This document shows positions 44,480 through 55,487 of a DNA stretch of 64,000 nt, piece after piece (the stretch's first letter is position 1; every line of letters starts with the position of its first letter). This stretch comes from Ignavibacteria bacterium (lineage in GTDB: Bacteria; Bacteroidota; Ignavibacteria; Ignavibacteriales; Ignavibacteriaceae): NCBI GenBank assembly GCA_030684555.1, contig JAUXVN010000128.1:1-64000 (forward strand), given 5' to 3'. The position numbers were made by a program, and so were the translations under genes. The notes beneath the pieces are model-generated. The model did no database searches, was not told the origin of the DNA, and saw only the letters and a list, made by a program, of their open reading frames with translations.

Positions 44480-44700
44480 TTACTTAACTACTATTTCCCC
44501 TTTAAAAGCTTTCTGCATCTCTGCAAAATTTGTGTAGCTCGAAACTCTGTTTCGACAATAGGAATATTTGCGAAACATAATTTCGCATTACACCGACTCA
44601 CCTTTAAACGCTTTTTGCATTAAGCTTTGAAAAAGATTTTCTAACTCCAACTCTGATTGTTTCTGCTTTTCTTTTAATGCTTCTGTTTTGTTTACTATCT
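44480..44700 (-). pseudogene. Duplicated 3' ends of hsdS
   Basis: On the minus strand 44588-44700 encodes VNKTEALKEKQKQS...LFQSLMQKAFKGESV and a stop, a second version of the hsdS C-terminus. A further shorter copy (44480-44518) encodes MQKAFKGEIVVK. The block 44521-44700 is a direct repeat of 44701-44880, period 180, and carries the REP-like palindromes with it. These tails lie downstream of the true hsdS stop at 44768 and are not expected to be translated. Confidence 0.75.
44535..44586. repeat. REP-like palindrome pair, hsdS region copy A
   Basis: GTAG leads into TCGAAACTCTGTTTCGA (44539-44555), followed by a second palindrome, GCGAAACATAATTTCGC (44570-44586). It is of the same family as the palindromes in hsdM and in the RAYT gene. 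Confidence 0.8.
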
Positions 44701-44714
44701 CTGCAAAATTTGTG

Positions 44715-44766
44715 TAGCTCGAAACTCTGTTTCGACAATAGGAATATTTGCGAAACATAGTTTCGA
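44715..44766. repeat. REP-like palindrome pair, hsdS region copy B
   Basis: The same pair as 44535-44586, shifted by 180 bases. Its right arm abuts the hsdS stop codon at 44768. Confidence 0.8.
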
Positions 44767-44767
44767 A

Positions 44768-45961
44768 TTACACCAACACACCTTTAAACGCTTTTTGCAT
44801 TAAGCTTTGAAAAAGATTTTCTAACTCATGCTCTGATTGTTTTTGTTTTTCTTTTAATGCTACTGTTTTGTTTACTAGCTCTGCGAATTGTTGCTGAAGA
44901 CGAAGTGGAGGCAAAATTATTGGCAAACTTCCGAGACCTTTTGTATTGATATTAAATTGACCAGCGGTAGTTGAACATTTACTTCGTATAACATTTCTAT
45001 AATTTGAATTGCCTAATAGATAAACTAAAAAGAGTGGGTTGGCATTTCCCTGTTTTACAACGGCACGAATGAGATAAGAAGCAAATACATATTTACCTTC
45101 CAGATCAAACAATGCACATCGTCCAACAAAGTGAGGATTCCCATTAGTCCTTACAAACAAAATGTCCCCATAATTTAGAACAATTTGGTCCTCCTCTTTA
45201 GTTGATAATTCGACCGTCTTCAAATCACATAAATCAACTACACCTTGAATGACGTTTGGTATTCTTAATACGGGAATACCTTGTTGGGAAGATTTAACAG
45301 ATGTGCCATACTGAAATTTCTCGACCAATTTATCAAATGAATAAATCTTCCACCCTTTCGGATTCTTAACCGGATCGCCAAACATTTCTATAAAAACAGA
45401 CTGCAAAAATTCATCTGTTAGTTTGTTTGCTTCTTTCCGTTTCTGTTTTGCTCTGTCTGCTTGTTCTAATATTTCTGCAATTTGTTTTTGGATTGGGAGT
45501 GGTGGGAGTGGAATTTGGATTTTTGAAACAGCGTCTAAACTAATTGAAGGATAGCTCTCATCTTTAATTAATCTACTTGGTTTAAAATAACTCAACCAAC
45601 TAGCCAAGTATTTTGAGTCCAGATATTCATTAGGATAAATCACTGCAAGATGCGAAACTACATATGCAGATGATCTCAATACAACCACACGATCTTTCAT
45701 TGCTGACATTCCACTTTTAGCAATAAGAATACATCCTTTTGAAAAAAGTTTTAGACGGTATTTATTTGCCTTTTCTTCTTCAATCTTTTCTAATTGATCG
45801 TAGTTATTTCCATCTAACAATTTTTCTAATGAACCTGCTCGAATAAATGGATAACCTTTATCCGAAAAGTTTTCAGAACCTTGAGGAGCACCTTGCCCGG
45901 CAGTAATAAAAGCTACCTCACCTAAAGATTTAACCTGCCAGTTTGAGGGGAGTTTATGCAT
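44768..45961 (-). CDS. hsdS: Type I restriction-modification specificity subunit S
   Basis: DNA-recognition subunit of 397 residues that directs the M and R subunits to a bipartite target. It has two target-recognition domains (about 1-150 and 205-345), each followed by a conserved helical spacer. The central one is PLPPLPIQKQIAEILEQADRAKQKRKEANKL, the terminal one PPLRLQQQFAELVNKTVALKEKQKQSEHELENLFQSLMQKAFKG. The dimension and spacing are normal. The terminal spacer has been duplicated downstream (44480-44700), so recombination could swap C-terminal ends. The gene follows fic after 382 bases, unlike the tight junction of hsdM and fic, so it may have its own promoter. Confidence 0.92.
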   Translation of the reverse strand: MHKLPSNWQVKSLGEVAFITAGQGAPQGSENFSDKGYPFIRAGSLEKLLDGNNYDQLEKIEEEKANKYRLKLFSKGCILIAKSGMSAMKDRVVVLRSSAYVVSHLAVIYPNEYLDSKYLASWLSYFKPSRLIKDESYPSISLDAVSKIQIPLPPLPIQKQIAEILEQADRAKQKRKEANKLTDEFLQSVFIEMFGDPVKNPKGWKIYSFDKLVEKFQYGTSVKSSQQGIPVLRIPNVIQGVVDLCDLKTVELSTKEEDQIVLNYGDILFVRTNGNPHFVGRCALFDLEGKYVFASYLIRAVVKQGNANPLFLVYLLGNSNYRNVIRSKCSTTAGQFNINTKGLGSLPIILPPLRLQQQFAELVNKTVALKEKQKQSEHELENLFQSLMQKAFKGVLV

Positions 45962-46343
45962 ATATTAATTCCATCGAACTCATCCCAAGCCCTTCTCCCC
46001 GCAAGCGGGATCTCAGACTTAAAAAGAGAAGGGAGTAAAACAGGAACACAAAAAGTTTATTTTGCCGGTTGTTATTCTTCATTTAAATGTAATCGCATCC
46101 AACTTATTTGATAATGTTAATCTATTATGATAATGTTTATTGAATTGTCTAAAAATTGCTTAAAATCGAAAGCATATAGGTAATAACTATCCTTCTGCAC
46201 CTAATTAATAGACAAAATACCTAATTAATAAGATCTTACTCGATCACTTGTACCTAACTTATTAAAAAAATGAGGAAATGGTTCAAAATCAACTCTATCT
46301 ATGTAATAAGCATCGTTCATTACATAGTTAACTATGTTATTAC
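45962..46343. other. Intergenic region between fic and hsdS
   Basis: 382 bases without a gene. CCTTCTCCCCGCAAGCGGG near 45990-46008 together with GAGAAGG downstream forms a hairpin. Three copies of ACCTAATTAATA-like words occur at 46199, 46219 and 46252. A dyad (TAGTTAACTA, within 46322-46337) lies just before the fic stop. These repeated words could be a promoter/operator for hsdS. Confidence 0.35.
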
Positions 46344-47387
46344 TTAGATCTTTTTCCACCTGGAATCTCTACCCATTTCAGTGCATTTAAGTTTGCCGTT
46401 TTTTCTTTCATCCCTTAATATTTTTCTAATCATATCCAGACTAACGCCCGGACATAAATTCTGAATATCCTTAACAGTGAATTCTCCTTGAATACTTTTC
46501 AGAATATCAAAGACTAAAGAAGTTTTACCGCCGCGAGCGGATGAAATCAATCCAACTCTGTTTTCAAAATCTTTGTATGCTTTTAATAAAATGCCGAGAA
46601 AATATTCCCACCAGGGAACTAAATTATGCTTGCTTTCGTGCCAGCCTTGCGATGACTTATTAAGAGCATCGTAGTAACTCTCTTTATTATCTTCAATCAG
46701 TTTTTCAAGACTTATAAATCTTCCAACTTCATAACCGGATTTATACAACAGCAAAAGTGAAAGTAAACGGGACATTCTGCCATTGCCGTCATTAAAAGGA
46801 TGAATGCAAAGAAAATCAAAAACATAAGTTGCGATAATTAATAATGGCTCAAGCTGTGATTTATCCAATTCAGAATTAAATAAAGTATGCAGCTTATCCA
46901 TTGCAGTTGGAGTTTCAAAAGCTGAAAGAGGTTTGAATCTTACAATTTTACTCCCGTCCGGATGAATCTCTGCAATCTCATTTTCAGTAGCCTTATAATT
47001 ACCCCCGGGCATTGCTGAAAGTGCATAAATATCTCTATGAAATTGTAAAACTATGTTTGAAGTAACAGGTATATGTTCAAAACTGGAATGAATAGTATTA
47101 AGAACATTTCTGTATCCGGCAATTTCCTGCTCTGATCTGTTGGTAGGCGTAGTTTTATTAGCAGCGATAGCTTTTATTCTTTCTAACGGTGCAGAGATTC
47201 CTTCAATTCTGTTTGATGATTCAATGCTCTGAATTATTGCAGTCTGCTTTAATGTCTCAAGCAATTGAGGAGACTGCTCTTTGAACAGATCCTGTTTACC
47301 TTTGTACTCACCAATTAACCGGACAGTCTGTAACACATTATGAGTGATTGAAATTGATTCGATATAATTATTTAGAAATGATTTCAT
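46344..47387 (-). CDS. Fic-domain protein (AMPylator-type) in the type I operon
   Basis: Fic protein of 347 residues. The catalytic motif HPFNDGNGR is at 196-204, and the protein would transfer a nucleotide monophosphate from NTP to a protein hydroxyl. The N-terminal helix carries the inhibitory motif SNRIEG (Ser58-x3-Glu62-Gly63), so it is an autoinhibited class II Fic. A winged-helix-like C-terminus (about 280-347; TVKDIQNLCPGVSLDMIRKILRDERKNGK) may bind DNA. Its first base overlaps the last base of the hsdM stop, a tight coupling. Fic genes are repeatedly found in type I R-M operons; their job there is not settled. Confidence 0.92.
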   Translation of the reverse strand: MKSFLNNYIESISITHNVLQTVRLIGEYKGKQDLFKEQSPQLLETLKQTAIIQSIESSNRIEGISAPLERIKAIAANKTTPTNRSEQEIAGYRNVLNTIHSSFEHIPVTSNIVLQFHRDIYALSAMPGGNYKATENEIAEIHPDGSKIVRFKPLSAFETPTAMDKLHTLFNSELDKSQLEPLLIIATYVFDFLCIHPFNDGNGRMSRLLSLLLLYKSGYEVGRFISLEKLIEDNKESYYDALNKSSQGWHESKHNLVPWWEYFLGILLKAYKDFENRVGLISSARGGKTSLVFDILKSIQGEFTVKDIQNLCPGVSLDMIRKILRDERKNGKLKCTEMGRDSRWKKI

Positions 47388-48910
47388 TATTTGGATAACA
47401 ACTTTTTAATTGAATTAATATCAACGGTAATTTCTTTTTCCAAACTTAATACTTTTTCCATTATCAGATCAGGTTTTTCATAAACAACTTCTTCATACAC
47501 TACAGGTTTATACCTTGAGATTGAGAGATCGTATTTATTCGCTTTGATATCATTAACATCAACAAGAATTGCTTTTTTGTAATCCGAAACTCCGTTTCGG
47601 GCTTTTGTCGAATCGGAGATTCGACTTACAGTCCAGTGCTTAACAATGTCCGGAATATCATTCTTATCGGATTTATTTCGTTTATCATCAAGAGTAAAAC
47701 CGTCACCTGCCATATCGTAGAACCAAACATTATCTGTTGTGCCGCCTTTCTGAAATACTACAATTGCAGTTGATACACCTGCATATGGTTTAAATACTCC
47801 TGAAGGCATAGAGATAATTCCTTCGAGCTTACATTTATCAATCAGGATTTTACGGATATCAATATGAGCGTTGCTTGTTCCAAACAATACACCATCGGGC
47901 ACGATAACTGCTGCTCTTCCACCGGTTACAAGCAGATCATAAATCAATTCAACAAAAAGAAGCTCGGTCTTTTTAGTTTTGGTTTTAAATCTTGGGTTAA
48001 CATCTGTTTCATCAATGGAGCCTTTAAACGGCGGATTTGCTAAAACGATATCGTACATTTCTTTATCATTGTACGACTTAGAAAGTGTATCTGTGTATTT
48101 AATATTTGGATTATCAATTCCATGAAGCATTAAGTTCATCGCACCGATACGTGTCATAGTAGAATCAAAATCATAGCCTGTTAGAGCATGAATTTTGAGA
48201 AACTTAAAAAGCTTTTTATCCGTTATCTTGTCACCGATTAAATGATGCGGCATTCCCTCCTCATCATACTCAAGAACATCATTGCTTGTATTTTGCTCAA
48301 GTATGTGCATATAGGCATTGAATAAAAATCCTGAAGTACCGCAGGCAGGATCACAAATCCTATCACCGATTTTAGGATCAACAAGCTTAACCATCATTCT
48401 GATTATGTGGCGCGGAGTTCTGAACTGTCCGTTTTTACCGGCAGTGGCAAGTTGTCCAAGCAAGTACTCATAAAGATCACCCTGCACATCAATGTTTTGT
48501 TCTGTTATGTGAAGGTCTTCAATAATATTTACAGCCTCTTGCAGCAGTGATGCTTTTGGTAAAGCAAAATATGCATCCTGCATATGCTGTGTGAAAGTAC
48601 TTGTTTCGGAACCAAGATTACGAAGGAACTCAAAAACTGTATCGCGGATATGTCTTAACATCTGATCGCCGGGTAATTGCGACCAGTAGGACCATCTGCA
48701 TTTTTCATTTCCTTTAAATACAGAAATGAATTTTTCATTTCGTCTCTTTGCCATTGCAGCATTTGTATTATCATTATCCACAAGCCGTTTAAGGAATATC
48801 AGATAAGACATTTGTTCAATAGCAGTAAGTGGATTTGATATTCCACCAGACCAGAACTTATCCCAGAGAGCATCTATTTTTTGTTTAAGGATGTTACCAT
48901 TTGTCAGCAT
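47387..48910 (-). CDS. hsdM: Type I restriction-modification methyltransferase subunit M
   Basis: N6-adenine methyltransferase subunit of 507 residues. The N-terminal HsdM_N helical domain (LKQKIDALWDKFWSGGISNPLTAIEQMSYLIFLKRL) is followed by SAM motif ICDPACGTSGFLFNAY near 190 and catalytic motif VLANPPFKGS near 285. With HsdS it methylates the host site; with HsdR it forms the restriction complex. Around residues 429-442 two REP-like palindromes (47584-47600 and 47607-47625) are translated as RISDSTKARNGVSDY within a variable loop before the conserved ANKYDLSISRYKP tail. The catalytic domain is intact. It lies between the RAYT gene and fic. Confidence 0.93.
   Translation of the reverse strand: MLTNGNILKQKIDALWDKFWSGGISNPLTAIEQMSYLIFLKRLVDNDNTNAAMAKRRNEKFISVFKGNEKCRWSYWSQLPGDQMLRHIRDTVFEFLRNLGSETSTFTQHMQDAYFALPKASLLQEAVNIIEDLHITEQNIDVQGDLYEYLLGQLATAGKNGQFRTPRHIIRMMVKLVDPKIGDRICDPACGTSGFLFNAYMHILEQNTSNDVLEYDEEGMPHHLIGDKITDKKLFKFLKIHALTGYDFDSTMTRIGAMNLMLHGIDNPNIKYTDTLSKSYNDKEMYDIVLANPPFKGSIDETDVNPRFKTKTKKTELLFVELIYDLLVTGGRAAVIVPDGVLFGTSNAHIDIRKILIDKCKLEGIISMPSGVFKPYAGVSTAIVVFQKGGTTDNVWFYDMAGDGFTLDDKRNKSDKNDIPDIVKHWTVSRISDSTKARNGVSDYKKAILVDVNDIKANKYDLSISRYKPVVYEEVVYEKPDLIMEKVLSLEKEITVDINSIKKLLSK
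47584..47625. repeat. Two REP-like palindromes inside hsdM
   Basis: CCGAAACTCCGTTTCGG (47584-47600), preceded by GTAAT, and GTCGAATCGGAGATTCGAC (47607-47625), followed by TTAC, the complement of GTAA. Both are read in frame. Confidence 0.88.
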
Positions 48911-48920
48911 TATATAACCT

Positions 48921-48943
48921 GTAGGTCGAAACTCCGTTTCGAC
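48921..48943. repeat. REP-like palindrome flanking the RAYT gene (3' side)
   Basis: GTAG followed by GTCGAAACTCCGTTTCGAC, 11 bases upstream of the hsdM start and 29 bases beyond the RAYT stop. It is in inverted orientation relative to the copy at 49851-49877. Confidence 0.88.
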
Positions 48944-48971
48944 AATTAATAATTAGTAAAAATAAATTTAA

Positions 48972-49841
48972 TCACATACTCAAGTACTTAAAATTACAAT
49001 AAGAATACTTCCAATCCTCCCACTTTTCACAAAGACCAGCTTTAACGGGATTATTAAGAACGTACATAACAATTCGTCTCAACTCCTTTTCATCACGCAC
49101 AACGTGATCATAACTTTCGTGCTGCCAAAATGCACCGGAGCGATTTAACAACTTATTACATTTTACTGCAGTAAACTTTTTTAAATCCTGCAATATTTTA
49201 GTAACAATGTAATCCGAAACTCCGTTTCGGGAGTACTGTTCCTCATTCTCTGAGCTAACAACTAAATTTTTGTTGTTATTAACTTGTTGATTATTTTCTT
49301 CTGGTTTGTCTGTCGTCGAATCGGAGATTAGAACTACAGATTTGTCTGTTCTCGAATCGGAGATTCGACCTACAGATTTGTAATTCGAAACTCCGTTTCG
49401 AGAATTTAATAAACTATCATCTGTAGTATCTGTAGTATCAGAAATCCCATTTACAATTGGTGTAAAGACCTGATGAACGTGATTGTACATAATTGTATAG
49501 CAGATTAAATCATAACTTTTCTCATCATAGAAATGCATCGCATCTTTTACAATTTGTGCAACACTATTTTCCTTTAACCATATAGGACCGTAATCTGAAC
49601 CATCCAACAATTTATCAAATTTACCAAAATATGCCGATTGGTATTTTTTATATTCTTCGAGCCGTTTTGTTTTATTAGTGTACCCGGCAATTACTTTTAG
49701 TTGTTGTTCTCTTTCTTCTTTTAATCTTTTAATTGTTTCAATAGGCAAAGAACCATTTAGTCTGTATGTAACAAAAAAAGTATACCCCGGTGGTTGGTAG
49801 TGAGGAAGATTTCTGTGGTAATATGTTTGAAATTGTTTCAT
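48972..49841 (-). CDS. REP-associated tyrosine transposase (RAYT, Y1_Tnp)
   Basis: Single-strand transposase of the IS200-like Y1 family, 289 residues. The N-terminal part HRNLPHYQPPGYTFFVTYRLNGSLP is a RAYT hallmark. The metal-binding HUH motif is NHVHQVF (His121, His123), and the candidate catalytic tyrosine is Tyr244 in WQHESYDHVVRD, followed by VMYVLNNPVKAGLCEKWEDWKYSY. Between them residues about 131-213 are a low-complexity insert not usual in the family. It contains four REP-like palindromes in frame (peptides RNGVSNYK, VGRISDS, LISDST, RNGVSDY). The gene is bracketed by inverted REPs at 48921-48943 and 49851-49877, the standard RAYT layout. It separates an hsdM fragment from the complete hsdM. 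Confidence 0.9.
   Translation of the reverse strand: MKQFQTYYHRNLPHYQPPGYTFFVTYRLNGSLPIETIKRLKEEREQQLKVIAGYTNKTKRLEEYKKYQSAYFGKFDKLLDGSDYGPIWLKENSVAQIVKDAMHFYDEKSYDLICYTIMYNHVHQVFTPIVNGISDTTDTTDDSLLNSRNGVSNYKSVGRISDSRTDKSVVLISDSTTDKPEENNQQVNNNKNLVVSSENEEQYSRNGVSDYIVTKILQDLKKFTAVKCNKLLNRSGAFWQHESYDHVVRDEKELRRIVMYVLNNPVKAGLCEKWEDWKYSYCNFKYLSM
49214..49402. repeat. Four REP-like palindromes inside the RAYT gene
   Basis: CCGAAACTCCGTTTCGG at 49214-49230, GTCGAATCGGAGATTAGAAC at 49314-49333 (decayed right arm), CTCGAATCGGAGATTCGAC at 49351-49369 and TTCGAAACTCCGTTTCGAG at 49384-49402. Each has GTAG or GTAA, or its complement, at the outer edge. Two of the cores are CTCCG and two are CGGAG, so both orientations occur. 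Confidence 0.88.
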
Positions 49842-49850
49842 CTTAGTTTA

Positions 49851-49877
49851 GTTACTCGAAACGGAGTTTCGAGTTAC
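49851..49877. repeat. REP-like palindrome flanking the RAYT gene (5' side)
   Basis: GTTACTCGAAACGG and its complement, a 27-base dyad with GTTAC and GTTAC ends. It lies 9 bases upstream of the RAYT start and directly next to the truncated hsdM fragment. Confidence 0.88.
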
Positions 49878-49886
49878 AATTTGAGG

Positions 49887-49970
49887 AAGCGAATTCGAAA
49901 TTCCACCCGACCAGAATTTATCCAAGAGAGAGTCTGCTTTTTGTTTTAGGTTATTACCGTTAGTGAGCAT
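49887..49970 (-). pseudogene. Truncated 5' end of an hsdM gene
   Basis: From ATG 49970 the minus strand reads MLTNGNNLKQKADSLLDKFWSGGISNS, closely matching the first 26 residues of the complete HsdM (MLTNGNILKQKIDALWDKFWSGGISNP). Similarity ends where the REP palindrome begins. The fragment follows the SIR2-PIN gene by 9 bases, the place where hsdM would be expected in the operon. It differs from the intact start at roughly one base in six, so it is not a fresh duplication. Confidence 0.8.
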
Positions 49971-49979
49971 CTCTTATAA

Positions 49980-52346
49980 CTATTTACCCTTTCCTTTTCT
50001 TCTTGCGTGCGCACGTCTCTGTTTATCAGCATATTTTTTCTTGTTTTTATCTTTTAGTCTTAATTTGGTTAATTGTGCTTTAGTTTCTTTAAGTTCATAT
50101 TGCCTGACATCTAAGACTATCTTTAATTCAGAAACTTCCTTTTCTTTTGCTACTAGTTTTTCTTTCAGACCTTCTTCTAAAGAATAAACAAACAATGGTT
50201 TGTCTAAATCAAAATATTCATCGATCGAGGAAGTATGCAAGTTACCATCGATATATTTATTAAAATCATTTAATCCTTTTTTATATGCTTGCTCTGCTCG
50301 GTTTATTAAAGTTGAAAAAAAATCTTGATATTTAGATTTATCTATAAAGTATTCTGTTGAGCGAAAATATGTTGAAATCAGCACTTCCTTAAACGCCATT
50401 GGTTTATTAATACGAGGAGACATTCTAATTAGAAATTCATATAAAGCATCGGGTCTAATTACAATATTCCTATTTACGTCTAATTCACATTCACGAGCTA
50501 TTTTATTCAAAAACCCACCTTGAGATAGAAAAGAACATTCACTCTTATTTGAGGCATCAAGTAGTGACCAGTTATGAATAATCACATAAGCTTCTGCTTC
50601 AGATTTTTTCCTAAAGGATGATTTATCAAACTTGTTATTTTCATCCGCTTTTTGTTCAATAAAATCGAATACTTTTTCTTTTTCATATTTTATTTGATCA
50701 GCATTTTTACCAAAAGAATCTATATCAATTTGAAATATTCCATATTTCTCAGATAAAAATTGAGAAACTATATCTTTATTACTTAAATTTTTATTAAATA
50801 TTATTTTCAAGTAGTCTTCAAAATTAATATGATCATTTGAGGCACAATAACGAATATAGCCATCAAGAAATGCATTCCTTTTATAAGGATAATTCCCGAT
50901 GGCTGCACTTAATACTGCCACAGATTGGTCCCCATTATCATTTATTAGTTTTTTTGCCCACTCTGCATGAAAATAAACCTCATCTATCAAACACGAAGTA
51001 GTAACTAATTTAATTTGGTTTTCCTTACAAGCACCAACTACAGCATTAAAAAAATCATAATCTAAACAAGAATGGGCAAGTAGTGGAATGATGACTGTTG
51101 AATCCACTAAAATTGCTCTATTACTTAAAAATTGTTTACGAAATTCTTCTCCGATTGGATCAATTTGTAATGCTTGGATGGAAAAATATGCTTTAGAATA
51201 ATACTCTAGTATATTTTCTTGAACTTTTGTAGGACTCGTCAACATATCAGAAATATACTTTATAAAATAGAATCTAACTGGATGATTGCTAATGTCCTTT
51301 GCTCTTAGATTTATCAATTTAAACAAGATAGAGGCTTGTTGTATAATTATAGGTTTTTTCTCAAAAATCATTTTTATTATCTCTATAGCTCTCTCTGAGA
51401 ATAAATCTATTATAACATCAACAGCAGCTTTCTTGACTTGTTCAATATGTTGAGAATCAATCCCATCAATGTTTTTAACAAAGTTATTTGCAATTTCAGT
51501 TACATAACTTTCCAATAAGTCATCATATTGATGGTTATATCTTTTGACATATTGGAATAATTTCACAGTTCCTTTATACGAAGCATTATCAACTCGTTCA
51601 ATGAAATTAACATCAACTAAATCTACCAACGCACTTTCAATGATTTTTAAGAATGAATCGCTCTTTACACCCAATAATTTATTTAGGGCAGTCAGTAAAT
51701 CCTTTTGCGAAAACACAACCTTATAGTATGAATCATTAATGATTGTTAATAGGATTGATTTTATAGAGTCAATATCAAGGTTTTCTTCACTTTTACTAAG
51801 CTGAAATTTATGCCACATATATAAACTTTGAGCGCGTTTTAGATCGGTTTCATCTCTTTTAATTATCTGATCTTGATCTGTCCGAATAAATTTAGAAATG
51901 GCTTCAAGGATATTTGTCAGTTCTTTGTGCGTACCACTCTTATTCGTATAATGGAAAACCTTTATGTTACATCGATTGTTTAAATCTCGAATTTGAGAAT
52001 TTGACACATCCGACAAGATGGCAAATATCGGGACCTGTCTTCTAAAATTTGCAGTTAATGATTTTAGAAGGTCGACAATGTAAGGGTCATTAATTGAATA
52101 ACCCACGATAAAAAACTTTTGTGCAAGGAAATAGCTTTTCAGAAAATCTCTATAGTATTTATTTTCATCCTTATGCTGATAATTATCATACTGATCCTCT
52201 GTTAAGATCAATGTTTCGGGTTTTTCAATGGCTCCGTGTATTTTAATTATGTACGTAAGCGTATCCGGGTCAAATCTTTCAAGATCATCTTTCGAGTTTG
52301 TCAAGGTAGTGTACGTTTTATTATTGTTTGTAAGATGCCTTGACAA
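49980..52346 (-). CDS. SIR2-PIN protein, main fragment (frameshifted)
   Basis: 788 residues that continue the SIR2 domain begun at 52351-52689. SIR2-type motifs are IKIHGAIEKP (catalytic His in the usual G-A/S context) and FIVGYSINDPYIVDLL near 79-94. A long helical region follows (about 150-400). A PIN-like nuclease fold is suggested by AILVDSTVIIPLLA (Asp415), TSCLIDEVYFH (Asp/Glu455-456) and SEAEAYVIIHN (Glu583-Glu585) at the expected order. The C-terminus is coiled coil and ends in a very basic tail (KKKYADKQRRAHARRKGKGK). ATG 52346 is only the first codon available after a frameshift; the real start is at 52689. PIN assignment is inference from motif order. Confidence 0.7.
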   Translation of the reverse strand: MSRHLTNNNKTYTTLTNSKDDLERFDPDTLTYIIKIHGAIEKPETLILTEDQYDNYQHKDENKYYRDFLKSYFLAQKFFIVGYSINDPYIVDLLKSLTANFRRQVPIFAILSDVSNSQIRDLNNRCNIKVFHYTNKSGTHKELTNILEAISKFIRTDQDQIIKRDETDLKRAQSLYMWHKFQLSKSEENLDIDSIKSILLTIINDSYYKVVFSQKDLLTALNKLLGVKSDSFLKIIESALVDLVDVNFIERVDNASYKGTVKLFQYVKRYNHQYDDLLESYVTEIANNFVKNIDGIDSQHIEQVKKAAVDVIIDLFSERAIEIIKMIFEKKPIIIQQASILFKLINLRAKDISNHPVRFYFIKYISDMLTSPTKVQENILEYYSKAYFSIQALQIDPIGEEFRKQFLSNRAILVDSTVIIPLLAHSCLDYDFFNAVVGACKENQIKLVTTSCLIDEVYFHAEWAKKLINDNGDQSVAVLSAAIGNYPYKRNAFLDGYIRYCASNDHINFEDYLKIIFNKNLSNKDIVSQFLSEKYGIFQIDIDSFGKNADQIKYEKEKVFDFIEQKADENNKFDKSSFRKKSEAEAYVIIHNWSLLDASNKSECSFLSQGGFLNKIARECELDVNRNIVIRPDALYEFLIRMSPRINKPMAFKEVLISTYFRSTEYFIDKSKYQDFFSTLINRAEQAYKKGLNDFNKYIDGNLHTSSIDEYFDLDKPLFVYSLEEGLKEKLVAKEKEVSELKIVLDVRQYELKETKAQLTKLRLKDKNKKKYADKQRRAHARRKGKGK

Positions 52347-52350
52347 AATA

Positions 52351-52689
52351 TTATCGTAGGTTAGTTGTGAAATAGCTCCGGAAAGGGAAACTTGAGATAA
52401 AATTGTAAACTCTCCCTTGTATTTTTGTATCAGTAATCTTATAATTGATTTTTTTCAGTAACCAGTCCTGTCCGTGCTTGTGCCATATCTCATTAAAAAA
52501 TTTGGGGTAATCAGCTTTTGCGTGATATTCTTCCATAAAATTTGTAATATCAAGATTTTCACTTTTCATATCACTATAAATACCATCAGCAAGTTGCTTC
52601 CAACTGGGTAATCCAATTTCACAAGATGGTCCAGCCCCCACTAAAGCAAAACAATTACCACTGTTAATGTAATTTATTAGATCTTCCAT
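52351..52689 (-). CDS. SIR2-PIN protein, N-terminal fragment (SIR2_2 NADase-like start)
   Basis: 112 residues with the SIR2_2 nucleotide-binding start FALVGAGPSCEIGLPSWKQLADGIY (GAGxS motif) and, at the end, SYFTTN before an artificial-looking LR and stop. Removing one G of the GG at 52359-52360 on the plus strand joins this frame to the next (TTNYDNILSRHL), restoring the canonical catalytic TTNYD motif and a single protein of about 903 residues. Such SIR2 domains are defence NADases that cut NAD+ after phage sensing. The gene starts 32 bases after the hsdR stop. Confidence 0.75.
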   Translation of the reverse strand: MEDLINYINSGNCFALVGAGPSCEIGLPSWKQLADGIYSDMKSENLDITNFMEEYHAKADYPKFFNEIWHKHGQDWLLKKINYKITDTKIQGRVYNFISSFPFRSYFTTNLR

Positions 52690-52721
52690 ATTAAGAGTCC
52701 CAAAAGTTTGTAAATTATTAA

Positions 52722-55487
52722 TTATTTTATGAGGTATCCTATTAACTCAAACAAGTCATTCACATCCTCTTCTGCAAACAATTTAGCAACTGCATTACTT
52801 CCAAAGTTAGTAAATGGTTCTTCATAAAGATCTGCCGGTTCAAGTTTTCTTCTTTGAACAAATACATTTTGTACCGCTCTTAGAAAACGAGATTGATCCG
52901 CATTGTAATTATGTTCTAATATGAAAGCATCAAAAGCTTTTTTAACAACGTCTTCATAGCTTGGAATTTTCTCAATGTTTAAAGCGTGTTTTAAGAAATC
53001 AACAAAGCTACCAACTTTAACTCCGTATGCCTTTAACATATTTTCTTCATCAAGGGTAATGTCTTCTCCTTTTAATTCTTTACTAAGTGTAAGTTCAAGA
53101 TCAAGTAAGTCATCAATACTGAGAGCCTCACCTTTTTTAAGTTTTATAATGGCAGGATGTTTATCTGCAAGTTCAAGAATCTTTTCTTCAATGCGTTTTC
53201 TATATTCTTCAATATAAACCTTCTGGTTATCTTTTCTAATAATTACCCAGCGGCGTGATTCAATTATGTCATCAAGTCCAAGTTCAATAACCAAAGAAGG
53301 TCTTTGCATTTTGTATTTCATAATCGGAGCAAGAGTTTCTTTGGCACTATCAAGTTTTTCTAATGTAAGGGTGTTCCAAAAGTTAGGTGTCGAATCTGAG
53401 ATTCGACCTACAAGAATTTCATTTACCAAACGGATATGTTGCGCAACTTGAGCAAGGTTTGTTGGCAGCAATGAAATATCTTCTTTGATTGAATCTATTG
53501 CCGCAGCCAAATCTTTTCTTTGCAGGAAGTTCAATCCCAATCTTTCCATCTTGCTGATAAAGAAGGCTTCATCGTTATTCATTCCGGGAACAAATCTTAG
53601 AAGCGGCGCAACTTTTAATCTTAGAAATTCAATCTTATCGCGGGTGATAAAATTCCAGAAATCATTTTGCCAGGCAAACTTAACATCTTTATATACCTTA
53701 TGTACAGAGAATGAATCGAGAGGGATATCTGTTATATCAGAACGTAAATTATTTATAATACGTTTTGCATCATCGCTTTCCTGATCACCCAAGAACATTT
53801 GGAGTTTAGCCAGCCGAGTATTGAAAATTGTAACTCTTATCGGAATCTGCTTATTAGTATCATCAATCTTTACTTGCTCAAAGTTCTGCCAGTAGTCTAT
53901 AATTAAAAAGCTTTCCTTCTTACCATTTGGAAGCCAGCCATAAACTTTACACGCTTCGTGGCTTCTTGTACCTCGACCAATCATCTGCCAGAATTTAATC
54001 TGAGAGTTGACCGGTTTCATAAAAGCAAGGTTAACTATCTCGGGGATGTCAACTCCCGTATCAAGCATATCAACAGAGATTGCAATCCGTGGCATATCTT
54101 CCTTCTTGAACTTTTCAAGTAGAACATCAGCCCTTTCCATTTTGGAATCAATAACCTGAACTAGATTAGGGTACTGCGGAAACATTTCGTTAAAAACCTC
54201 TGACAATCGCATAGCGTGGTTATGAGTAACAGCGAAGAGAATCGTTTTGCCCGGATATTGTCCTGATTTATCTTTCAAACAATTATCCATAAACTCTTCC
54301 CACTGGGCACGAAGAGTATCTTTGTTCGTTACCTTTCTTTCAAGATCAGTACCTTCAAAGTTTAATTCATCAGGATCAATTCCATTTGAACGCAATATCG
54401 ATTTTTCTTCTTCTGAGAGATCAATCCCTTTAACACCTTTTCTCTGGAACTTTGCTTGAGCAGCATAAACACTAAAATCTACCAGGTATTTTTCTTTAAC
54501 TGCCTCATCGAATGAGTAGAGAAAAGTAGGACTCTTACCTTCACAATCAAAAAATTTGAAAGTATCGCGCTTGATAAACTCAGCAGGAGTTGCTGTTAAA
54601 CCAATTTGAATTGCATCAAAGTAAGCAAGCACATCAGTGAACTTATTATAAATGGAACGATGACATTCATCAGTGATAATAACATCAAAATCGGCGGGGG
54701 TAAATTTATTGTAGCAAAGTTCTAAGGTCTGAAGAGTAGAAACATATACGCGAGCATCAGTGGAAAGGTCATAAGTTCTAATCCTGGTTCTCGATTCGTT
54801 TGGTAGATGCTGTTTAAATCCATCGGTTAGAGCTTGAGTTACTAAACTATCTCTATCGGCTAGAAATAAAATCTTCTGTGCTGCATTTGCTTTGAGCAAA
54901 ACATCAATCAGAGCCACAGCTGTTCTGGTTTTACCGGTACCAGTAGCCATCACAAGAAGTGCTTTACGTTTCTTCTTAATATCAAATGCATCTGCTATTC
55001 TTCTTATTGCTTCGGCTTGATAAGAGCGATTAACGATTGTTTCTTTAATTTGGATTGAAATTAGCGGTTTACGATTTTGTTTAAGATGTAAAAGTCGTTC
55101 AAGATTTTTGCGGGAGAAAAAACCGGCAACGTGTCTTTCAGCAGCATTCTCGGAATCCCAGAAGAAAGTATCATCTCCATTACTTAAAAATGCGAATGGG
55201 CTGAATGATTGTTTCTTCTCTAACTCCTGAACATATTCCAGTACTTGCTGTTTACCTACTCGTGGATCGCGACTGGTTCTCTTGGCTTCAATAACAGCGA
55301 GAACATCGCCATTAGCTTTGTACAAACAGTAATCACTAAATCCGGTTACACGAGTTTTATCATAATTCTGAACAGGAATTTCAAATCCAACGTGGGTATG
55401 ATCTGCAAGATTCCATCCTGCTTTTATTAGAAGCGGGTCTATAATAGAGTAACGGGTTTCTTTTTCACTGATATTAAGCGGTGTCAA
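52722..55487 (-). CDS. hsdR: Type I restriction endonuclease subunit R
   Basis: Motor and nuclease subunit of 921 residues. The nuclease motif is near the start (FSDYCLYKANGDVLAVIEAKRTSRDPRVGKQQVLEYV, with Asp and Glu-x-Lys). An SF2 helicase follows with Walker A VMATGTGKTRTAVAL, DECH box ITDECHRSIYNKF, motif III GLTATP and motif VI MIGRGTRSHEACK. The rest is the R C-terminal helical region. It translocates DNA when it meets unmethylated sites and cuts at a distance. Around residues 694-700 a REP-like palindrome (53389-53407) is translated as VGRISDST. The gene is at the upstream end of the operon. Confidence 0.95.
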   Translation of the reverse strand: MTPLNISEKETRYSIIDPLLIKAGWNLADHTHVGFEIPVQNYDKTRVTGFSDYCLYKANGDVLAVIEAKRTSRDPRVGKQQVLEYVQELEKKQSFSPFAFLSNGDDTFFWDSENAAERHVAGFFSRKNLERLLHLKQNRKPLISIQIKETIVNRSYQAEAIRRIADAFDIKKKRKALLVMATGTGKTRTAVALIDVLLKANAAQKILFLADRDSLVTQALTDGFKQHLPNESRTRIRTYDLSTDARVYVSTLQTLELCYNKFTPADFDVIITDECHRSIYNKFTDVLAYFDAIQIGLTATPAEFIKRDTFKFFDCEGKSPTFLYSFDEAVKEKYLVDFSVYAAQAKFQRKGVKGIDLSEEEKSILRSNGIDPDELNFEGTDLERKVTNKDTLRAQWEEFMDNCLKDKSGQYPGKTILFAVTHNHAMRLSEVFNEMFPQYPNLVQVIDSKMERADVLLEKFKKEDMPRIAISVDMLDTGVDIPEIVNLAFMKPVNSQIKFWQMIGRGTRSHEACKVYGWLPNGKKESFLIIDYWQNFEQVKIDDTNKQIPIRVTIFNTRLAKLQMFLGDQESDDAKRIINNLRSDITDIPLDSFSVHKVYKDVKFAWQNDFWNFITRDKIEFLRLKVAPLLRFVPGMNNDEAFFISKMERLGLNFLQRKDLAAAIDSIKEDISLLPTNLAQVAQHIRLVNEILVGRISDSTPNFWNTLTLEKLDSAKETLAPIMKYKMQRPSLVIELGLDDIIESRRWVIIRKDNQKVYIEEYRKRIEEKILELADKHPAIIKLKKGEALSIDDLLDLELTLSKELKGEDITLDEENMLKAYGVKVGSFVDFLKHALNIEKIPSYEDVVKKAFDAFILEHNYNADQSRFLRAVQNVFVQRRKLEPADLYEEPFTNFGSNAVAKLFAEEDVNDLFELIGYLIK
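53386..53411. repeat. REP-like palindrome inside hsdR
   Basis: The dyad GTCGAATCTGAGATTCGAC (53389-53407) is followed by CTAC, the complement of a GTAG lead-in. It is read in frame as GRISDST. Confidence 0.88.

Follow-up and report, generated by a model that had tools for sequence, protein, structure and literature searches.

REPs of Escherichia coli occur as hundreds of dispersed copies. The corresponding enzyme, TnpA-REP (REPtron; PDB 4er8), has an HUH/Tyr fold, and its gene is adjoined by GTAG-tagged hairpins but has no REPs of its own inside. The enzyme binds hairpins as single strands and recognises and cleaves them via GTAG, and the E. coli REP stems are bulged (PMC8266576). In REPINs and BIMEs, two REPs are paired in inverted orientation, separated by a short spacer and tagged at the outer ends. 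Palindromes are also found within genes, as a 2013 study showed for intragenic GTAG REPs (PMC3733652); like Rickettsia palindromic elements, these are short and are read in frame in unrelated genes. For TnpA-REP subclass 2.4, the equivalent of RAYT group 4 in Bertels et al. 2017, Quentin et al. 2018 described REPs that lie in frame in the segment from the HUH to the Tyr motif; this subclass has the motifs NH[IFV]H, WQ and YIxNNP, and its REPs are placed in a variable loop distant from the active site (PMC6006769). A fixed border of the insert, a match between internal and flanking REPs and conservation of the hairpins at the DNA level are not reported in the main text of that study.

Here we analyzed a stretch of 64,000 nucleotides from an Ignavibacteria bacterium (the window), containing a RAYT gene in which tagged REP-like hairpins are part of the reading frame, between the HUH and Tyr motifs, and which has the same hairpins at its flanks; the palindromes lie where the original prediction had placed them (Table 1). 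The motifs NHVH (HUH), FWQ and YVLNNP (Tyr) are nearly invariant in 17 homologues, and a profile built from these had TnpA-REP (4er8) as its sole match in PDB (E 2.8e-7). The predicted structure gave the same best match in Foldseek (TnpA-REP with a REP hairpin, E 2.5e-5), and residues 134-208, between the HUH strand and the following helix, are predicted to be disordered (pLDDT < 50). Residues 213-280 match NCBIfam REP_Tyr_transpos (NF047646, E 3.8e-19) with 69 bits, which falls short of the 80-bit cut-off, and a search against Pfam gave no match, both probably because the insert splits the domain. As in subclass 2.4, a variable insertion with in-frame REPs is situated between beta3 and alphaC, and GT[AG]G-tagged REPs, including the double-foot form, flank the gene; in the Tyr motif a V replaces the I of the published YIxNNP. 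Judged by motifs, insert and REPs, the RAYT fits subclass 2.4/group 4; a tree placed it among the homologues found here. In-gene hairpins had been called unusual, but for this family they are not, as they belong to subclass 2.4 in the description by Quentin et al. 2018 (PMC6006769).

A relative, G161, has an orthologous RAYT that is about 90% identical in the C-part and about 52-55% in the N-part. For the C-part dN was 0.04 and dS 0.96, and substitution rates show the core protein to be under purifying selection. As dS was similar in the N-part (1.25), the C-part and hsdM (1.15), the gap in identity reflects a difference in constraint, and we rejected the idea that recombination with a breakpoint in the insert had made RAYT a mosaic. 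Viral spread of RAYT was also rejected, as viral contigs contained no relative. The source genome has a second, distant RAYT of 218 aa (L157, on contig C31 of G000; 41% identity), which lacks a long insert.

Table 1. Features of the RAYT locus and the surrounding restriction island (positions in the window; a point marks features given without strand).
Feature	Position	Strand	Remarks
Outer inverted hairpin pair, tagged, downstream of hsdS	44534..44591	.	
Inner inverted hairpin pair, tagged, at hsdS 3' end	44714..44771	.	
hsdM, type I methyltransferase	47387..48910	-	
In-frame inverted hairpin pair within hsdM, tagged	47579..47629	.	VSRISDSTKARNGVSDY
Flanking REP-like hairpin, 3' side of RAYT	48921..48944	+	GTAG-tagged
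RAYT/TnpA-REP gene	48972..49841	-	289 aa; HUH (NHVH) residues 120-123, Tyr motif YVLNNP at 260
In-frame insert, about residues 130-211	49209..49454	-	REP-like hairpins and spacers; predicted disordered
In-gene hairpin GTAA-tCCGAAAC.tcc.GTTTCGG	49209..49232	+	gene strand reads RNGVSDY; 3' border of insert
In-gene GTAG-tagged hairpin	49317..49337	-	single mismatch in stem; translates to VLISDS
In-gene hairpin GTAG-GTCGAATC.tcc.GATTCGAG	49350..49373	-	read as VGRISDS
In-gene hairpin GTAA-TTCGAAAC.tcc.GTTTCGAG	49380..49403	+	read as RNGVSNY
Decayed REP remnant	49432..49454	-	read as VNGISDT
Flanking hairpin, 5' side of RAYT	49851..49877	-	tags at both ends, GTAA variant on both feet ('double foot' form)
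31-codon duplicate of hsdM start, upstream of RAYT	49878..49970	-	about 78% identical; layout also in G161
Single REP in frame in hsdR	53388..53411	-	VGRISDS, 21 nt net

All four in-frame palindromes inside RAYT carry the GTAG/GTAA edge ascribed to them earlier, and the stem at 49337 (minus strand) proved imperfect. The decayed remnant coincides exactly with the 5' border that the insert has in homologues, 18 nt downstream of HxH. Compared with shuffled sequences, the flanking and hsdR hairpins folded clearly better, and the in-gene hairpins better less strongly. In the window RAYT the internal REP pair has expanded to about two pairs. Tandem in-frame amplification of an internal REP unit was also seen in other RAYT genes (L059, 392-545; L066, 5399-5595), with two units of 81 nt and several of 42 nt or multiples thereof.

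RAYT relatives, drawn from the order and from 84,980 species genomes, were found in Ignavibacteria, Bacteroidota, Poribacteria, Chloroflexota, Planctomycetota and others. A tagged hairpin was present in the HUH-Tyr segment of 31 of 93 related RAYT loci, as compared to 0.16 on average, and at most 3, when the codons of the 93 loci were shuffled. Tagged edges were the rule, and among loci with an insert of at least 90 nt a tagged hairpin was found in 21 of 28, which bears on the two kinds of counterexample considered in the original prediction, i.e. copies lacking a GTAG-type edge and homologues having the insert but no palindromic DNA. There is a single insert site, after ..TPI and before the conserved IVTKIL segment, at which the last tag frequently ends; in 19 of 20 loci the first GTAR tag is read in codon frame 0, and it often follows HxH at a distance of 18 nt. 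With codon frame and insert borders shared between loci, the element can therefore be written as TPI-[V ... Y]-IVTKIL. A tree of 86 RAYTs (homologues found here, built without the insert) requires 7 changes of the internal-hairpin trait, compared to 23.6 when the trait is shuffled, and in one supported clade (98*) 18 of 20 RAYTs have the internal hairpin. The exceptions, L027 and L051, lack an intact internal copy yet keep the flanking REPs, and the internal hairpin is consequently not essential. Since site and frame are common to the clade, an invasion of the transposase by repeated random insertion is unlikely to be the whole story.

The same conservation of site and frame throughout the clade speaks against neutral hitch-hiking, according to which REPs insert anywhere near RAYT and only in-frame copies in tolerant loops survive, the internal hairpins being functionless. 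Tagged hairpins are moreover found at 8.7 per kb in the insert but merely at 0.39 per kb in the remainder of the RAYT ORFs. The predicted disorder of the insert, on the other hand, fits such neutral carriage, and Quentin et al. 2018 consider the effect on activity to be little (PMC6006769).

The hairpins were also compared at the level of DNA. Across 17 internal hairpins of differing sequence 98.5% was paired, with a covariation score of 0.86 vs. 0.19 for shuffled sequences, and the encoded peptides differ (VGRISDS, VERKSSF, VGQHAML, VGRDLSR). An internal arm agreed with the flanking arm of its own locus in 6.14 of 7 bases, vs. 4.54 +/- 0.19 when permuted (29 loci), the match being exact in about half of the loci and not in the other half. 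The hairpin sequence hence varies between loci but tracks the REPs flanking the same locus. Hairpin similarity follows RAYT relatedness too, so that co-inheritance explains part of this match. In three related pairs, which were picked because both members carry the hairpin, tags and stems had 0 substitutions in 104 positions, as compared to 337 in 1830 for the protein core (P 2e-9), and in the two pairs that have a spacer the spacers changed faster than the core. This pattern of unchanged stems and diverging spacer and core is a further argument against neutral hitch-hiking. Based on their frequency among the loci, the single site, the tracking of flanking REPs and the lack of substitutions, the internal hairpins look conserved or homogenised as DNA, and the encoded peptide is predicted to be disordered.

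Conservation of the internal stems could be a result of homogenisation rather than of selection, if gene conversion or re-insertion keeps the internal hairpins equal to neighbouring REPs and the internal copies themselves are under no selection. Loops switch in concert at orthologous positions (tcc in the window, gct in G161), the REPs of an island are largely of one loop type that differs between orthologous islands, and several RAYTs are flanked by REP arrays. Several loci, e.g. L046 and L059, nevertheless have intact tagged internal hairpins with arms unlike the flanking ones, and we regard homogenisation as a serious rival that is still rather unlikely to be the answer.

The RAYT is part of a type I restriction island with hsdR, a split SIR2-type gene, RAYT, hsdM, Fic and hsdS. 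The palindromes had been taken for a genome-wide family, and this view did not hold. The window contains 12 instances of the pattern GTAR-NN-CGA-N9-TCG (0.13 expected), and 12 of the 15 matches in the 4.34-Mb genome are inside 44534-53411, i.e. within 9 kb; with one weak A+T-rich site as exception, all palindromic pattern matches in this genome are in that interval. A search of the 4.34-Mb genome did not find the many dispersed copies by which REPs and REPINs are recognised, and in this the window REPs differ from REPINs/BIMEs, with which they share the inverted pairs, short spacer and outer tags. In G161, 5 of 6 core matches are within the orthologous island, and in another relative (G071) the identical core is dispersed in 31 copies. 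In the source genome the REPs are confined to the surrounding restriction island, new in-frame copies included.

Such copies are found in hsdM and hsdR. HsdR has a clean insertion of seven residues, VGRISDS, that corresponds to one 21-nt REP immediately following CTT and is missing from three homologous HsdR proteins; CT is a known cleavage dinucleotide of TnpA-REP (PMC8266576). The inverted pair in hsdM is present at the same site in G161 and G060, and in G078, whose island is without RAYT and without such REPs, a different insert occupies that site. In-frame REPs in loops of hsdM and hsdR are what neutral hitch-hiking would give, and many genes are known with intragenic GTAG REPs (PMC3733652); weighed with the conserved site, frame and stems, we find this explanation a serious one, albeit rather unlikely. 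Compared with those intragenic REPs and the Rickettsia elements, the palindromes here are hosted by the transposase gene and their site is a conserved one within a clade, and unlike subclass 2.4 as published, the window REPs are also present in hsdM and hsdR and are restricted to one restriction island. In the main texts of the published work we did not find the fixed border, the match to the flanks, the stem conservation or the confinement to a restriction island.

Part of the hsdS 3' end is present as a tandem duplication (44534-44930, period 180 nt), with an inverted REP pair after each copy. G161 has an orthologous island, in which hsdM is 86% identical and RAYT and the hsdM fragment are laid out as in the window. 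The first 31 hsdM codons are duplicated upstream of RAYT in two distant genomes (49878-49970 in the window, 8352-8440 in L042), as though insertion of the element had brought back the start of the gene. As a general rule, a RAYT bringing a replacement gene end was rejected: among the flank comparisons listed, the duplicated end (hsdM) was seen only in the window and its ortholog G161, and the other listed loci have REP repeats on both sides. The SIR2-domain gene (49980-52689, minus strand) resembles ThsA/LmuA defence proteins, and what appears to be a frameshift near 52346-52351, due to decay or to an assembly error, splits it into ORFs of 112 and 788 aa. Another, different type of palindromic element, about 200 nt long (GAACTCAT..CCTTCTCTT..AAGAGAAGG..AGTGAGTT), is found at the hsdM ends in G078 and G060 and at the hsdS ends in G060 (L154, 12950-13320, reverse complement; L155, 8880-9190 and 11720-11930), beyond which the gene end recurs as a diverged duplicate, and 45975-46040 in the window may be a degenerate copy. 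The orthologous restriction islands, some having RAYT or REPs and others not, provide a natural series on REP insertion into coding genes.

Hairpins that are placed within the coding sequence and fold as single strands would also be compatible with autoregulation, the feedback or decoy idea of the original prediction, where RAYT would bind to the hairpins of its own gene or of the transcript, or RNA hairpins would slow translation, thereby limiting the dose of transposase. To our knowledge no RNA binding is known for RAYTs, which counts against this; likewise the hairpins are positioned mid-gene rather than at the gene start, the RAYT gene is kept in relatives without the hairpin, and the flanking REPs alone could do the job. 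Although single-stranded GTAG hairpins are bound by TnpA-REP (PMC8266576), we consider autoregulation possible but quite improbable.

Taken together, we think it fairly probable that the window encodes a RAYT of the subclass 2.4 (group 4) kind with a built-in, in-frame cognate REP pair of putative function. Outward-GTAR-tagged hairpins are present at a fixed HUH-Tyr site, in a variable loop that is predicted to be disordered. By analogy with E. coli TnpA-REP, the RAYT would recognise the hairpins as folded single strands through GTAG, and it may move REP copies, mostly nearby. The internal pair may have been acquired early in the clade, as an old insertion in a permissive loop, and could have been retained as a donor or template copy that permanently couples the enzyme gene to a matching substrate; we propose that it is retained because the enzyme gene then stays linked to this substrate whenever the locus is transferred. 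That the pair is a functional cis element, i.e. the enzyme's own substrate built into its gene, conserved as DNA and co-evolving with specificity, we suggest only tentatively, at somewhat less than an even chance. If this holds, enzyme and substrate would be inherited and transferred as one unit. How REPs are matched to domesticated transposases is a question made testable by a gene that contains its own substrate.
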